From a virus, in IMG/VR virus record IMGVR_UViG_3300027659_000046, positions 1 to 51,520 of that record: a stretch of 51,520 nt of DNA; one strand, 5' to 3'. Shown here piece by piece: positions 15,885 to 39,800 of the stretch (positions are counted from its first letter, which is position 1; each line of letters begins with the position of its first letter). A model generated the notes under the pieces. That model saw only the letters and a program-made list of their open reading frames with translations, had not been told where the DNA came from and did not search any database. Made by a program: the position numbers and the translations under genes.

Positions 15885-16904
15885 TTATTTAAATGGTATA
15901 TAACTTTTGTCGTCCTTGTGGTATGCTATACAGTACTCACACATACCATCCTTCAACTCATGCTCATAGTACTCTATTGCACAATGCCAACAGTCTCTTA
16001 CCTTCTCACTACCATATGACTTGCTGTATGTCTTGCCATCATAAGACCAACCATCCCAATCATTGTGTGTTGTATCCTCTTTCTTTACACTATCCCAACC
16101 ACCATACCAATTACTCTTAGCAAATGTTGGCTTGGCGTATGTATTAGGGGTAAACTTGAACTCATATACCTTAGTGCATGATGACATGATAGAGTACACC
16201 ATGTTGAGGCAATTCTCTACATCACTAAGGTTAATCATCTCATCATCCATGTGTGGATTGTAATACCCACAAGACATGTTAGCTACACATATACCCACAC
16301 CACTCTGTGCCAGGGTATACACATCTGTCAGTCCGCCTGTCGATTCATTGTACCCATAGTTCTCAAGGATAGGGGCAATGTCATTGTAGAACTCCTCACC
16401 ATATAGGTCAGTGCCAAATATGTTATAGACAAAGTCACTGTTACCCTTTCTGTCACACTGTAGTATAAACCGACAGTCATTGAAGAATGAAAGATCAGCT
16501 ACACTACTGCCTACACAGCCAACCTCCTCATCTCTGAAGAAGGCTGCCTTGCAATAATCTAATGACTCCAACATTGATAGGCATATGTATATACCAACCT
16601 TGTCATCACCACCTACGCCAGTAGGGCACATGTTCTTGATGTCATATGCCATAGCGATGTTGTCATCATGTACCACCATGTAGTCCTGCGTGGGAATTAT
16701 ATCGTGGACAGTATCCGTATGTGATACGATACATGGATACTTTCCATCGGTACTTACACCCTTAGTTACGTAGAGGTTGCCCTCATGTAATTCTACATCG
16801 TAGCCCCGTTCAAGGCACTTGTCAAGGATGTACTCAACCATATGGTCAGTATGGTAGCTGACAGATTGAATGTTAAGAATCTCAAGGAATTGTTGATTAA
16901 TCAT
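15885..16904 (-). CDS. M20-family-like zinc peptidase with C-terminal zinc ribbon
   Basis: The 339-aa protein has the ordered metal-site motifs of M20 di-zinc peptidases (peptidase T / aminoacylase type): IVSHTDTVHD at 59-68 (H-x-D), PTGVGGDDKVGI at 94-105 (the bridging Asp region), FRDEEVGCVGS at 123-133 (catalytic Glu pair) and a late NPHMDDE (His ligand). A C-terminal tail adds CWHC and CEYC pairs about 15 residues apart, a zinc ribbon not part of normal M20 enzymes. It could trim peptides or act on a small amidated substrate. It is coupled to the 452-aa gene by an 8-nt overlap. Confidence 0.7.
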   Translation of the reverse strand: MINQQFLEILNIQSVSYHTDHMVEYILDKCLERGYDVELHEGNLYVTKGVSTDGKYPCIVSHTDTVHDIIPTQDYMVVHDDNIAMAYDIKNMCPTGVGGDDKVGIYICLSMLESLDYCKAAFFRDEEVGCVGSSVADLSFFNDCRFILQCDRKGNSDFVYNIFGTDLYGEEFYNDIAPILENYGYNESTGGLTDVYTLAQSGVGICVANMSCGYYNPHMDDEMINLSDVENCLNMVYSIMSSCTKVYEFKFTPNTYAKPTFAKSNWYGGWDSVKKEDTTHNDWDGWSYDGKTYSKSYGSEKVRDCWHCAIEYYEHELKDGMCEYCIAYHKDDKSYIPFK

Positions 16905-18514: not shown

Positions 18515-18558
18515 GGAACTGGGCAGGGACTCGAACCCTGCCTACATCCAATCAGTTC
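18515..18558 (-). ncRNA. tRNA acceptor/T-arm-like minihelix (copy 1)
   Basis: On the minus strand GAACTG (18558-18553) pairs perfectly with CAGTTC (18521-18516). Directly stacked on it, GGCAGGG and CCCTGCC close a seven-base TTCGAGT loop, the canonical T-loop sequence. Only ten bases replace the D and anticodon arms, so it is not a decoding tRNA. It lies between two genes and could be an RNase P or RNase Z cleavage signal that splits the transcript, or a tRNA remnant. Confidence 0.6.
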
Positions 18559-18566
18559 GGGGGAGA

Positions 18567-18713
18567 TTATATCTCAACTACAATCCCTATTTGGCACTCA
18601 TTAGCCTCGGCTTCTGCTTCCTCCATGGTTTCAAATAAGAGTGGCATTCCGGATTCCATGTCAACTACAATGCTTGGATAATATGAGTCAAAGGTTTCAA
18701 TTACGATATACAT
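18567..18713 (-). CDS. 48-aa MYIVIETFD-family protein (copy 2)
   Basis: An ATG at 18713 opens 48 codons: MYIVIETFDSYYPSIVVDME, then an acidic helix (TMEEAEAEANEC) and QIGIVVEI at the end. It is the paralogue of the 47-aa gene at 10381-10524, with nine identical N-terminal residues and a near-identical C-terminus. Its leader carries AAATCAACA. The tRNA-like element follows its stop after 8 nt. Confidence 0.75.
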   Translation of the reverse strand: MYIVIETFDSYYPSIVVDMESGMPLLFETMEEAEAEANECQIGIVVEI

Positions 18714-19040: not shown

Positions 19041-19337
19041 TTATTTATTTTTAAAGTTTTTTACTTTGATTATCCAATCGGCTACCTCATCGGCTTTACA
19101 GTATCCCTTTACCCTGTCATACCCAAAATCATACCATACATTGTCTTTATCCAATATGGCAATCTCCACATCGAGTGATGAGTACACTATTGGCCTGTTC
19201 GTCCAATCAATTTGGTCTGAATGGTCAATAGATGGTCTGTTGTTCTCGCAATAGTTACCCGTTCCCCATTGTACGGATATAGTGAAACCATTCTCAAATG
19301 TCATTTGAAATCCTTTGTGCATTATACTACTAAACAT
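19041..19337 (-). CDS. Conserved small phage protein
   Basis: The 98-aa product contains HKGFQMTFENGFTISVQWGT followed by NYCENNRP, and a later VEIAILDKDNVWYDF. The 'H-K-G-F-x-M-x-F-x-N-G-x-x-x-S-V-Q-x-G' pattern is one I have seen in phage proteins of unknown function. The start may instead be the internal ATG at codon 6 or 12. Its annotated start overlaps the end of the next gene by 8 nt. Confidence 0.65.
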   Translation of the reverse strand: MFSSIMHKGFQMTFENGFTISVQWGTGNYCENNRPSIDHSDQIDWTNRPIVYSSLDVEIAILDKDNVWYDFGYDRVKGYCKADEVADWIIKVKNFKNK

Positions 19338-19542
19338 ACAACCCCCTTTCTACAGCTTGTATAGCTGTTTTAAGTTCAAATGCCTTGTAGTTTTTCCATG
19401 CTTCAGCCAACCTCTCTTTAGGATCTGTTGCTTCGGACAATTCGTACCACTTACTGATGAGCGTTTCTGTTGTGCTCTTTTTGACTGCCACCTTCTTGCC
19501 ACTGTAGACAAGAGTTGATGTGTTTTTGATTCTACTTCTCAT
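19330..19542 (-). CDS. Unknown small basic protein
   Basis: The 70-aa product (MRSRIKNTSTLVYSGKKVAV, then a helix AEAWKNYKAFELKTAIQAVE) is basic at the N-terminus. It is the first protein-coding gene downstream of the large structured RNA on the same strand, 55 nt after the tRNA-like fold. No family was recognised. Confidence 0.55.
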   Translation of the reverse strand: MRSRIKNTSTLVYSGKKVAVKKSTTETLISKWYELSEATDPKERLAEAWKNYKAFELKTAIQAVERGLYV

Positions 19543-19597
19543 TGTGTTGTTGTTCAGATGTACTGCTGTCCACCAGTATGTGTGTGATTAAAAAATA

Positions 19598-19644
19598 GGC
19601 ATAGGGAGGGACTCGAACCCAACCTATTGGCGACCATCCTATGC
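19598..19644 (-). ncRNA. tRNA acceptor/T-arm-like fold (copy 2), 3' end of the large RNA
   Basis: On the minus strand GCATAGG (19644-19638) pairs perfectly over 7 bp with CCTATGC (19605-19599), followed by one C and then TATTTTTT. Just before the 3' strand is GGG-TTCGAGT-CCC, a T-loop on a short stem. A TGG-TCG-CCA mini-hairpin takes the place of the D and anticodon arms. It cannot decode. Confidence 0.6.
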
Positions 19645-20290
19645 ACTTTTAAAGGTTATTCACGCGTGATTAGTCATGTATGTAGCAACATCCCGTTGCC
19701 CATAGTATTTTACTCCCTACTTATTCAACAGACAACACCCACTTATAGTGTTGAATGGCTTTCGTCCAGGAGGGGTCAATTACAGCTATTTGATAGCTTC
19801 AGCGGACCAAGGGAGTTACCCCTCACCTTTCGGTCGTACCCGCTTATACACATTTACCACAATCCCTTAAAATGTGTGAAAATTACATGGATTTTCCTTG
19901 CATACGTCTACCATCACACAGCCCGAACTATGTAGATTATATGCCAACTTGGAAATACATTAGTACAGACCCATCCACATTTGTCACAGCATTGCGCTGT
20001 ATGTGAACATTGGGTTAAACGTCCTTTGACCTATCAATTTTTGCCCCTATTCTACTTTTGCCATAATTGCACATTGGTTTAGGAATCAACTTCTCGCCTC
20101 TGTGGGATGCGCCACCCAATTTACTGCAAAAGCTCCCGAATAGTTACAAACATTACCCCACACAACGCGTTGCGCTGTTGCATGGCTTTTGATAGGCGAA
20201 GCATTGCGTAATCCGCCTAATATACGTTTGGCACTCAATTTCCAGGCTACATTAATGTACATACTACCCCACCCCCACTTAGGATCGCGG
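19598..20290 (-). ncRNA. Large ornate structured RNA, about 0.7 kb
   Basis: No credible reading frame covers this stretch, yet it is dense in perfect stems. 19969-20015 is a 15-bp hairpin in three segments (ACCCA, CACAT and ACAGC with their complements). 19723-19730 pairs with 19749-19756; 19784-19789 with 19793-19798; 19873-19879 with 19914-19920; 19685-19689 with 19695-19699; 20194-20198 with 20214-20218. A three-way junction at 19801-19844 includes ACC-GAAA-GGT, a GNRA loop only on the minus strand. The 3' end is a tRNA-like acceptor/T-arm. It is bounded upstream by a terminator. Size, phage location and tRNA link recall the GOLLD and ROOL classes, but identity is unproven. Confidence 0.6.
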
Positions 20291-20324: not shown

Positions 20325-20350
20325 AAAAAAGGGGCGGTTATAAGCCGCCC
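20325..20350 (-). terminator. Rho-independent terminator after the 139-aa gene
   Basis: On the minus strand GGGCGG and CCGCCC (6 bp) enclose CTTATAA and are followed by C and TTTTTT. It separates the protein gene from the large RNA, which must then have its own promoter or depend on readthrough. Confidence 0.85.
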
Positions 20351-20376: not shown

Positions 20377-20796
20377 TTACTTTTTAGTACGTACTATTGT
20401 TTTGTACGTGTTTTGTTGATAATATCTTTTTATCAATCCCAAAACTAACCAAGTTGAAAAGCCTTTCGCATCCGAATAGATAATTTCCTTATCGTTTCTT
20501 AATGGGATTAAATTGGATGGGATAATATCCTTAGCATTAAAATTTTTAAATGAACTTAAAAACTTACCTTCGCTTTTCAAAATTGCTGTTATGCAGGATG
20601 AAATTGAACGTAATTTTAATTTTGCATCCCTATTTTGTAGACTTTTATAGCCTTGCAATTCACGTCCGGTTACATTAGCCGACAAAAAGATTACTTTTTC
20701 AGTTTTCTTTGTTGCTGTTTTACCTTTCGTTTCTTTGCTTTTGCCTTTCGCTGTTGCTTTTGCTTTGCTGTTTTCTGTTGCTGTTAAATTGCTCAT
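20377..20796 (-). CDS. Unknown protein with Lys/Ala/Thr-rich N-terminal tail
   Basis: The 139-aa product has a disordered basic N-terminus (about 35 residues dominated by Lys, Ala, Thr, Gly) and a globular C-terminal half (LQNRDAKLKLRSISSCITAI; FSTWLVLGLIKRYYQQ). The tail resembles histone-like or nucleoid-binding tails. It is the first leftward gene of the divergent region and is followed by a terminator, so it is a separate, probably early, unit. The leader AAAATCAAAACA precedes the ATG. Two perfect palindromes (20352-20364 and 20365-20376) follow the stop. Confidence 0.65.
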   Translation of the reverse strand: MSNLTATENSKAKATAKGKSKETKGKTATKKTEKVIFLSANVTGRELQGYKSLQNRDAKLKLRSISSCITAILKSEGKFLSSFKNFNAKDIIPSNLIPLRNDKEIIYSDAKGFSTWLVLGLIKRYYQQNTYKTIVRTKK

Positions 20797-36113: not shown

Positions 36114-36884
36114 ATGGCAAAAGATACAGCTCAATGGATTGAATTAGCAGAGGTAATATACCAGTATATTGACCAAGCTAAACTTACTAGCGCAGAGTAT
36201 AGAAGGCTATGGCCTATTGGTGTAAGAGGAGTAGAAGAGGTGGGATACGATGTCCATATGGAGCCAAAAACAGAGAAGCTTATAGTTAATGCTAATAAGA
36301 CTGTTACTCTTCCTACTAACTATATAGGATTCTCTAAGGTAGGGGTATTGAACGCAAAAGGTGAAGTAGCTACTCTTAGAAGAAATAGCAACCTTACCGA
36401 GTATAAGATTGACCAAACAGATAGGCTGTCAAACAATACAGACAATAGCGTAGGTAATACATATAGGCTTCAAGACCTTGCTTACGTAAACTATTTTGAC
36501 GGGGCAAGATATGCTAATATATTTGGCGCAGGAGCTGCTCTTAATAGTCAAGGTCAATTTGATATATCTGAAACAGAAGGATTAATATATCTCGACAATG
36601 ATTTTAATTACACATATGTAATTTTAGAATATTTCTCTTCTCCATCAGACGATGTAAACTTCAAGATACCTATTCAAGTTAGAGATGCTATATTATCGTA
36701 TATAGCTTGGAGAGATATTGAGTACTTACCAGCTGGAAGAAGGTCAACAATGGGTGACAAGCAGATGAGGCGTAAAGAGTACTATAATCAAAAAAGGCTT
36801 GCAAAGATGAGGGTTAACCCTGTGACTCCGTGGGACGCAAATGAGCAGATAAGGTTGAGTCAAAAACTTGTAGCAAAATCATAA
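36114..36884 (+). CDS. Head-to-tail adaptor / tail tubular-type protein
   Basis: The 256-aa product has a helical start (AQWIELAEVIYQYIDQAKLT), a beta sandwich (NANKTVTLPTNYIGFSKVGV; RDAILSYIAWRDIEYLPAGR) and a basic helix near the C-terminus (RRKEYYNQKRLAKMRVNPVT). This order matches T7 gp11-like adaptors in layout. It precedes the nozzle-like gene by one base. Confidence 0.65.
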   Translation: MAKDTAQWIELAEVIYQYIDQAKLTSAEYRRLWPIGVRGVEEVGYDVHMEPKTEKLIVNANKTVTLPTNYIGFSKVGVLNAKGEVATLRRNSNLTEYKIDQTDRLSNNTDNSVGNTYRLQDLAYVNYFDGARYANIFGAGAALNSQGQFDISETEGLIYLDNDFNYTYVILEYFSSPSDDVNFKIPIQVRDAILSYIAWRDIEYLPAGRRSTMGDKQMRRKEYYNQKRLAKMRVNPVTPWDANEQIRLSQKLVAKS

Positions 36885-36885
36885 T

Positions 36886-39800
36886 ATGAAGACAGAAAGA
36901 AAACAGATAGCAGGGGTGATGAATCTTGATGACTCTAATGATGTTTTGCCAAGCGGTCATCATAAGGAGGCTAAGAACATAGTATTTAGAGGAAGTCAAG
37001 GTAGTCTTTCTGCTCAAAATATCTTGGGTAATAGGAATATCGCAACATCTCTACCTGCCGGAACAAATAGCTGTATAGGGTCGCATTATGACTCACAGAA
37101 ACAGAGACTGTTTTACTTTAACTTTAACTCAAATGGTAACCATGGTATATACATATATAATACTATACCAAAGACTATACAGGCTTTATTTATAAACAAT
37201 ACCCATAGCACTACAGATGTTTTAGAATTCAATAGAAACAATCCAATTACATCTATAAACATCATGTACAATGATGCATATAAGCCTTCATTGGACCTTG
37301 ATGGAGATGTTCTTTATTGGATTGATTCACTTGGGCGACCATCAAAAATAAACATAGATAGGAAGCTAGCTGGAGTGTATGCCTCATACAAAAGATCTTA
37401 TTTAGATGTAGCTAAGGCTCCTCCATCAATGCCAGTAAAGTCAGCTTATGAGTACGACAACAACGTAACCAACAACAACCTTAGAAACTCACTATTTCAG
37501 TTTATATATAGGTGGGTTTACGACGATGGAGAAAAGTCTGTGTGGAGTACTGGTAGCATGGTTCCTTTACCTTGGCTTCCATTCAATGAAGCACTATCTA
37601 GGTTTCCTAACAGTAACTCTAGAATCAACATTTTCATGTCTACTGGAGATGAAACAGTAAAAAAGATAGAACTAGCAGTTAGGAAGTGTGCAGATGGAGT
37701 GACATCTGATTATGAATTAATTACATCTTTAAATAAGAAGGATACTAGTTTATCAATATCTAACAATAACGTGTATAGTTATTTGTTTTACAATAATTCA
37801 TCTTTAATACCAATAGACAAGGCAGAGCAAATATCACTATTTGACTATGTGCCACAGAAAGCAAATGCGCAAGAATTGTTAAATGGTAGCACTATTATTT
37901 ATGGTGGCATAACAGAGGGGTACGATAATGTCAGTAATGTAAATGCTACCATTTCATCTCCATATACTACTCCAGATTCTATTGAAGTTCCTGGAGTTTT
38001 ATTCTTTGCGCAACAGAATGGAGTAAGTAGCTATGGAGGGACAAACTCAATTGACGTATTCCTTACGGGCATGGGGGCAAACGATGCAGGAACAAATGTT
38101 CCTGTTTCTATTCCAGCAGCAGGGTATGGAGATTATTATGTAAAACTTAGAAATTCAGCAGGAACTTTATTTACAATATTTTACGATTCGACAACATCAG
38201 ACAGTATTAATCAAATACTTATTGGCCTAGAGGCAAGTGCTACGTCGCAAGGTTTTTCTGCATTAATTACAGGCAATAAGCTTAATATTTTTGATGCAAC
38301 TGCGCTGAATTTAGAATCGGCATATATGATAAATAGTTTGTCTGCTGCACCTTTTGCAACAAATAGGCAAGACAATGCTTTGTATGTGCATCAAGGAAAC
38401 TCAAATTATAGGTATGGTATTGCATATTATGATGAGAAGGGAAGAACAAATGGTGTTGTAACTTCAGAAGGATTGAAGATAACTACCCCAAAATGGACAG
38501 GAAGTACACTATACCCATTCGTTCAAATATCTATATCACATCAGCCTCCAATTTGGTCAACATACTATAATATTGTAAGGACTGATAACCTTACGTATGA
38601 TAAAAATATATTTTGGGTATCAAACCGTGCATTCACTAAGCTAACAACAAGGGCAACATCATCAACCGATTTCTCTATATCTTATATAGGTATAGATAAC
38701 ATGATACAATACAACGAAGACATTCAGTCTACTTCAGGGTATATTGGATACGACTTTGCTCCAGGGGATAGGATAAGGTTTACGGAAAGAGTTAATGCAA
38801 ATGGTTCTACTATTGGACTAAACGACAACTTAGACTTTGAAATAATAGGAGTTGAGTCAAATCCAAACGTGAATGGATATGTTGCTAAAGGAACTTATAT
38901 AAAGATAAAATATCCAGCTACATCCTTATATGCAAGCTTTCAACTGTTAGAACCGGATCCTGTTGTATACGCAGGCACTGCTACACTTGTTGAGGATTTC
39001 CAGAACTATAAGATACAGATTTATAGCTACAAGAAGCCATCATCCAGTATTGATGTTTACTATGAGATAGGACAGCAGTATGCGGTATCTCAGCCGGGGA
39101 CAGTAAACAGGTATCATGTAGGGCAAAGCCAGTCACAGACAGCGTCTGTTCCAGCGTTAGTATATCTTACAAGCGGAGACGAGTTCTTTAGGTATAGGAA
39201 TATTCCTGTTGGAGCAAATTATACCTTTACCGCTGGGCAGTATGGTCAAGGTGATAGCTTTGGGGCGTTTGCTGGAAGATATAGAAACATAAATGTAAAT
39301 ATATTTGCTACGGACAATACTACTAAGACGATATCTAACTCTATATATGAAATAAAGTCTCAAGTACTTGGAGGTAGTACAACAAGTTTGCTTGCTATTG
39401 AATATCCTAATTATACAACTCCAGACTGTCTATACAGAAATAAAAGCGGAGTAAATCAAACTGTAAGAGTTAAGGGAACTATTCCTATTTCTTCTATAAC
39501 ATCAAATGCGAATTACGTCGCCATACACGCAAAGGTTGTTTTAAATGGAACTACTGCAGCAATATATCCTGTTCTAAAAAGAGTTCCTGTAACAGAATCT
39601 AATAGGCAGTATGAATTTGAATTTGATGCTAAAATACCTGTTGCTGCTGCTGCCAAATTATTTTTAATGACAGAGACGCATGATGATACTGGATTTAAGA
39701 TTAATGTTGGCGCTTTTGAATTACAGCTTGATGTGGTAAATAATACACAAATAGCAATAATAGAGAAAAGTTTTAGTGATATAAATAAGATTGAAATAAA

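Follow-up and report, generated by a model that had tools for sequence, protein, structure and literature searches.

What is encoded in the roughly 0.7 kb of minus strand, free of genes, that lies within the 51,520-nucleotide IMG/VR virus record analysed here (the window)? The window has recognisable genes for terminase, portal and replication functions, and its terminase is distantly related to those of Flavobacterium and Cellulophaga phages; the host belongs to Bacteroidota-type bacteria. Early and replication genes run leftward from about 20.8 kb (among the genes on the minus strand, that at 15885–16904 is an M42-like peptidase phage gene, Pfam PF05343, phrog_4191), and structural genes run rightward from 21.6 kb. 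The stretch takes second place in the leftward arm, behind a Lys-rich protein gene and its terminator:

20377–20796, minus strand: gene for a Lys-rich protein of 139 aa, the usual upstream neighbour of the large RNA, without a Pfam or PHROG match
20332–20350, minus strand: intrinsic terminator GGGCGGCTTATAACCGCCC-CTTTTTT, separating the Lys-rich gene from the large RNA
19598–20290, minus strand: large structured RNA (coordinates approximate), without ORFs in homologues and supported by conservation and covariation
19330–19542, minus strand: downstream gene, with homologues following the RNA in L004, L005, L008 and L042

A preliminary description of this single sequence had seen here a large and ornate structured RNA, encoded by a phage, tRNA-like at its 3' end and isolated upstream by a terminator. 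The terminator is indeed present, at 20350–20332. Perfect stems alone prove nothing here, because the minimum free energy is no better than that of dinucleotide shuffles (z = -0.30), 7 of 20 of which fold equally well, and the evidence below comes from homologues.

Twelve further phage contigs carry homologues of the large RNA, highly divergent in one case and mostly adjoining the same Lys-rich gene. The first were recovered by blastn of the stretch against loci fetched by terminase: two full-length relatives (L003/L002, which are one contig, and L042), two that match in the 3' half (L004 and L005) and one with a short match (L008), in which the same gene order flanks an ORF-poor stretch of 845 nt, again with a terminal tRNA-like fold. 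The motif TAAGCGGGTWCG is common to the syntenic gaps of L022, L048 and L031, and a scan for it added L238, L239, L240 and L243; a further core-motif match, in L241, resembles coding sequence and was set aside as an apparent chance match. A DNA similarity search of the phage collection gave one chance match only. The homologous stretches measure 0.55–0.85 kb. An obligate pairing of the RNA with the Lys-rich gene is argued against by L046, which has the gene and no room for the RNA. At the syntenic site, relatives without the core motif have gene-poor stretches of about 1 kb (L047 3343–4488, L015 4556–5548, L021 4335–5474), possibly other large RNAs.

A conserved reading frame, sought by comparing the homologues, was absent, and a protein-coding reading was rejected on this ground; the stretch had been described as gene-free, and so it appears. 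In a 58-codon ORF compared between the window and L042, 14 codons differ, 11 of them altering the amino acid, and L042 then meets a stop. Between relatives, the 3' domain differs by a 26-nt insertion and single-base indels. The window is identical to L003 across most of the 5' domain and differs from it in the 3' part, whereas over 19835–19598 it shares with L004 the 26-nt insertion and a T-stem variant; recombination inside the RNA is therefore likely. Sequence comparison thus confirms 19598–20290 (minus strand) as a non-coding structured RNA of roughly 0.7 kb, made up of the following elements:

19903–20290, minus strand: 5' domain, variable between phages, with a predicted fold that includes the segmented hairpin 20015–19969 and the helix 20185–20158
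19848–19877, minus strand: hairpin ACACAUUU...AAAUGUGU, with two compensatory pairs in 7 sequences
19774–19846, minus strand: core pseudoknot UAAGCGGGUACG-[insert]-GGUC-CGCUG-hairpin-AAUU-GACC, 100% of cells paired
19809–19834, minus strand: accessory insertion of 26 nt with a GAAA-capped hairpin, found in the alignments in the window and L004 only
19785–19797, minus strand: hairpin GCUAU-CAA-AUAGC, with three compensatory pairs
19713–19772, minus strand: arm CUCCU...AGGGAG with inner hairpin AACACUAUAAGUGGGUGUU (19753–19735), with compensatory changes
19679–19704, minus strand: hairpin UAUGGGCAACGGGAUGUUGCUACAUA, with two compensatory pairs

When the 3' domain was scored on the seven aligned sequences from which its structure had been drawn, a procedure that favours the structure, seven helices (43 pairs) were retained in 99.7% of cells and 10 pairs were changed on both sides. 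None of the shuffles came up to the alignment in percentage paired, in number of doubly changed pairs or in covariation score, and pairing drops to 31–49% when the structure is slid along; the count of further pair types was not above that of shuffles. The core pseudoknot has the consensus UAAGCGGGUWCG-N4-CGCU...N'4, in which AGCG/CGCU encloses N4, and N4 pairs with N'4 past a hairpin. In the 12 sequences compared, every cell of this N4/N'4 helix is paired (48 of 48), and three of the four pairs covary (GGUC/GACC, GGUU/GACC, GGUA/UACC, CCUC/GAGG, UCUC/GAGA or UUUA/UAAA, depending on the phage); the AGCG/CGCU helix is invariant and hence shows no covariation. By eye, L008 loosely fits the pseudoknot with GUUA/UAAC. 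Homologue alignment and covariation, which the preliminary description had proposed as a check, thus bear out both the RNA and its ornate structure.

The arm at 19713–19772 shows a compensatory A-U/G-C change in its inner hairpin and one more in its outer part. L239 lacks the inner arm, which is missing as a unit, and the loss of exactly one arm fits an RNA built of helices. A long-range helix of the minimum-free-energy fold, UUUUAAGGG/CCUUUAAAA (19872–19864 with 19655–19647), is not kept in L239 and L243 and was rejected; the local hairpin 19877–19848 was preferred because its two compensatory pairs support it. Structure in the 5' domain is supported more thinly than that in the 3' domain: helix 20185–20158 has two compensatory changes against L042, where CCAUGCAAC/GUUGUGUGG of the window becomes CCAUACAAU/AUUGUAUGG. 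Two further details had been reported for the window. The 15-bp segmented hairpin was found at 19969–20015; the three-way junction with a GNRA tetraloop placed at 19801–19844 does contain a GAAA-capped hairpin, but one that belongs to the accessory insertion and is therefore no general feature of the RNA.

The RNA ends in a tRNA-like element (TLS), and a second one lies further along the leftward arm:

19598–19644, minus strand: TLS1, 3' tRNA-like element, with compensatory acceptor changes in homologues
18515–18558, minus strand: TLS2, second tRNA-like element

A TLS lacks an anticodon arm and consists of a 12–13-bp acceptor plus T-arm helix, a linker (AUGGUCGNAG) some 10 nt long and a T-loop of canonical form. 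In TLS1, the acceptor GCAUAGG (19644–19638) pairs with CCUAUGC (19605–19599), the T-loop is UUCGAGU (19617–19611), the T-stem has one internal mismatch and C74 is at 19598. R1, a covariance model built from 32 TLS copies, finds TLS1, whose sequence did not contribute to it, with 29.3 bits and an E of 9e-5 in 609 kb, and TLS2, whose own sequence is in the model, with 48.1 bits; every other match in the 609-kb set falls at the end of the RNA, at TLS2 or at one of the T-arm terminators that L004 and L005 have. TLS2 starts 8 nt past the stop of a 48-codon ORF (18567–18713) and ends about 22 nt before the next ATG; it is also present in L003. Among the homologues, L031 has the RNA core and no recognisable TLS. 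The syntenic gaps of L022 and L048 end in an acceptor-like stem that changes from TGAAGGG/CCCTTCA to TGAAAGG/CCTTTCA, with a non-canonical T-loop (GTCGCAC). In the divergent homologue L238 (1–968, minus strand), the 3' end resembles a tRNA-like fold of greater length, AGGGAAA...TTTCCCT with GCGGGTTCGAATCCCGC, which ARAGORN does not call, and a further TLS-like fold lies just upstream of the RNA.

On the sequence evidence, this 3' end is a separate and widespread element that neither Rfam nor ARAGORN calls, and whose separateness a reading of the window alone could not reveal. A search pattern that fixed the linker, part of the T-stem and the T-loop, and left the acceptor free, found the fold also in unrelated phages and in bacterial genomes. 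Among its 179 matches, 134 have a full acceptor and T-stem (12 bp in total in 93, 13 bp in 40) and 112 a linker of 10 nt; these are the unselected figures, the covariation count having used copies picked for good pairing. The 134 well-paired copies come from 115 loci, mostly of actinobacteriophages, Streptomyces- and Nonomuraea-type genomes and Bacteroidota phages. C74 is present in 75 of 80 distinct copies and purine-73 in most, a signal mostly outside the pattern; the first acceptor pair is G-C in 68 of the 80, and CCA is usually not encoded. The exact T-arm pattern had zero matches in viral_contigs, and the new matches of another pattern, AATAAC..TTTAAAAG..TGGTCG, were chance ones, without a tRNA-like fold. 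In a literature search with incomplete coverage of subscription papers, we found no description of an element of this type, which is weak evidence of novelty.

TLS copies lie between genes. They start 5–12 nt past the stop of an open frame of at least 60 codons in 34% of cases, compared to 3.3% for random positions. R1 matches several copies each in the actinophages Konstantine, MakoManhole, Morgana, Dagobah and Endor1; the 15 copies examined there are all intergenic according to independent annotations, and 10 of these 15 start 5–9 nt past a stop codon, and the next start codon is often 43–51 nt beyond the TLS. Konstantine also has a 1.55-kb unannotated gap (36653–38207; L245 654–2208) upstream of its TLS-punctuated gene block, and a Nonomuraea genome (L178 4108–5751) has five tRNA-like elements in 1.65 kb.

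Acceptor/T minihelices suffice as model substrates for bacterial RNase P. The TLS would offer the determinants that tRNA enzymes use: the 12–13-bp helix, a D/T-loop elbow, usually a G-C first pair (G1-C72), purine-73 and C74, all found here as sequence correlates of an RNase P substrate and not as proof of one. The tRNA elbow is recognised by both RNase P and RNase Z (PMC4810234). We consider it fairly probable that the window encodes a large RNA whose 3' end mimics a tRNA, that this mimic is cut by host tRNA-processing enzymes, and that elsewhere it serves as intercistronic punctuation. Comparison establishes the structure and its conservation, the missing coding frame, the TLS family and its place between genes; that the RNA is transcribed and cut, at what time, and what its body does are inferences. 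The RNA, with a fast-changing 5' domain, a conserved pseudoknot-based 3' domain and an anticodon-less tRNA mimic at its 3' terminus, would probably be early and trans-acting, and would head the leftward replication arm of the phage. Host RNase P, probably together with tRNA 3' enzymes, would cut at the TLS; at TLS1 the cut would give the large RNA a defined 3' end and free the downstream mRNA, while TLS2 and the copies in many other phages would punctuate polycistronic mRNAs. The early-arm position and the usual Lys-rich neighbour gene suggest a ribonucleoprotein with an early regulatory or host-takeover role. Weighing against this explanation are the lack of room for the RNA in L046, the lack of a TLS in L031, the odd loop of L022 and L048, the usual absence of an encoded CCA, and the T-stem mismatch of TLS1.

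The TLS might instead remain uncut, or be trimmed at its 3' side only, and act as a protective tRNA-like cap, possibly CCA-added, on the RNA upstream. Indeed, tRNA-like 3' ends are stable, C74 is conserved, and a position so close behind stop codons would fit a cap at the end of an upstream mRNA. We nevertheless regard such a cap as rather unlikely: the G-C first pair that predominates among the distinct copies is a usual RNase P determinant, and elbow-bearing tRNA mimics are usual RNase P substrates (PMC4810234).

Likewise unlikely, in our judgement, is that the stretch is a structured 5' leader that acts in cis on the early operon downstream, akin to a riboswitch or attenuator, with the TLS as a processing or stability element. 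The downstream genes are co-directional, the first starting about 55 nt past TLS1, and the segment between RNA and gene (19543–19590, minus strand; GGACAGC...CTGAACAA) is retained in most close homologues. However, the size of 0.55–0.85 kb speaks against a leader, the 5' domain is swapped among relatives that have the same downstream gene (L004 and L005 compared to the window), and a TLS lying between RNA and gene would separate the two.

A GC hairpin followed by a U-run could also make the TLS an intrinsic terminator. The preliminary description had noted both an acceptor/T-loop fold and a U-run at the 3' end; the fold stands, at 19598–19644, and UAUUUUUU directly follows it in the window, but this U-run is not conserved, being absent from L008, L239, L243 and the actinophage copies. 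The terminator reading, which we deem very improbable, was rejected because of this, and an intrinsic terminator needs neither a covarying acceptor nor an elbow motif, purine-73 or C74. In L004 (3692–3670), L005 (3556–3534) and L243 (near 12150), all on the minus strand, the upstream gene ends with a T-arm hairpin and U-tract (AGAGGGGTTCGACTCCCCTCTTTTTTT), suggestive of a tRNA-like element that also serves as a terminator.

GOLLD forms a 14-mer RNA cage and ROOL an 8-mer one. The kinship to these RNAs raised in the preliminary description found no support: their covariance models had no match in permissive searches of the window stretch, L050, L057, L060 and L238, and none of the 4227 Rfam families, GOLLD and ROOL among them, matched the window or six homologous loci at gathering score. 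What the window RNA shares with them is the 0.6–0.8-kb size class, the phage origin, many helices and pseudoknots and, as in GOLLD, a conserved 3' and a variable 5' part (PMC12286853); it differs in its pseudoknot core, in ending in an anticodon-less tRNA mimic and in the lack of tRNA genes nearby. That it is a divergent member missed by the Rfam models is accordingly most improbable. The only meaningful echo in the permissive Rfam search was the tmRNA T-arm, at 8–16 bits compared to a gathering score of 47: the T-arm sequences are nearly identical in these weak partial matches, but the TLS acceptor strands lie close together, with only linker and T-arm between, and neither the Rfam tmRNA model nor ARAGORN identified a tmRNA with its tag reading frame.

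That the TLS, with its tRNA-like 3' half (a 12-bp acceptor/T helix, left free in the search, and a T-loop UUCRANY, included in it), is the remnant of a tRNA gene, or else a prophage attachment site, is scarcely credible, since the fully paired truncated form, whose linker of about 10 nt stands for the D and anticodon arms of a cloverleaf, recurs between genes across unrelated phages, often several per genome, ARAGORN calls no tRNA or tmRNA, and covariation refutes this reading for the family.

The closest parallels to an RNA ended by a processed tRNA mimic are the mammalian lncRNAs MALAT1 and NEAT1, whose tRNA-like 3' elements (mascRNA and menRNA) are cut by RNase P (PMC11693755, PMC12941219). 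Here too a long non-coding RNA is followed by a tRNA-like structure, but in a phage, with a minimal element that lacks an anticodon arm, an unrelated sequence and a presumed cleavage. In mitochondria, functional tRNAs punctuate polycistronic transcripts; phage TLSs are likewise tRNA-shaped elements between genes of one transcript, often right after stops, but they cannot decode, and their processing is putative. Phage RNAs processed by host RNase P are also known, namely phi80 M3 RNA and P1/P7 C4 antisense RNA, along with tRNA-like viral ends and mRNAs (PMC11143913). These are single cases, whereas the TLS is a recurrent module. We know of no sequence in common between M3 or C4 RNA and the TLS.

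We would give an even chance to the broader proposition that phages of at least two bacterial phyla generally punctuate their transcripts with a shared TLS cut by host tRNA-processing enzymes, and that one Bacteroidota-phage lineage also uses it to end a new class of large pseudoknotted RNA. If true, phages would have their own counterpart of the tRNA punctuation seen in mitochondria, and the large phage RNAs would gain a new family with a searchable core. The finding also directs attention to an RNA-processing signal overlooked in many sequenced phages, the cultured actinobacteriophages Konstantine and Endor1 among them, and would link phage operon expression with host RNase P and tRNA 3' enzymes.
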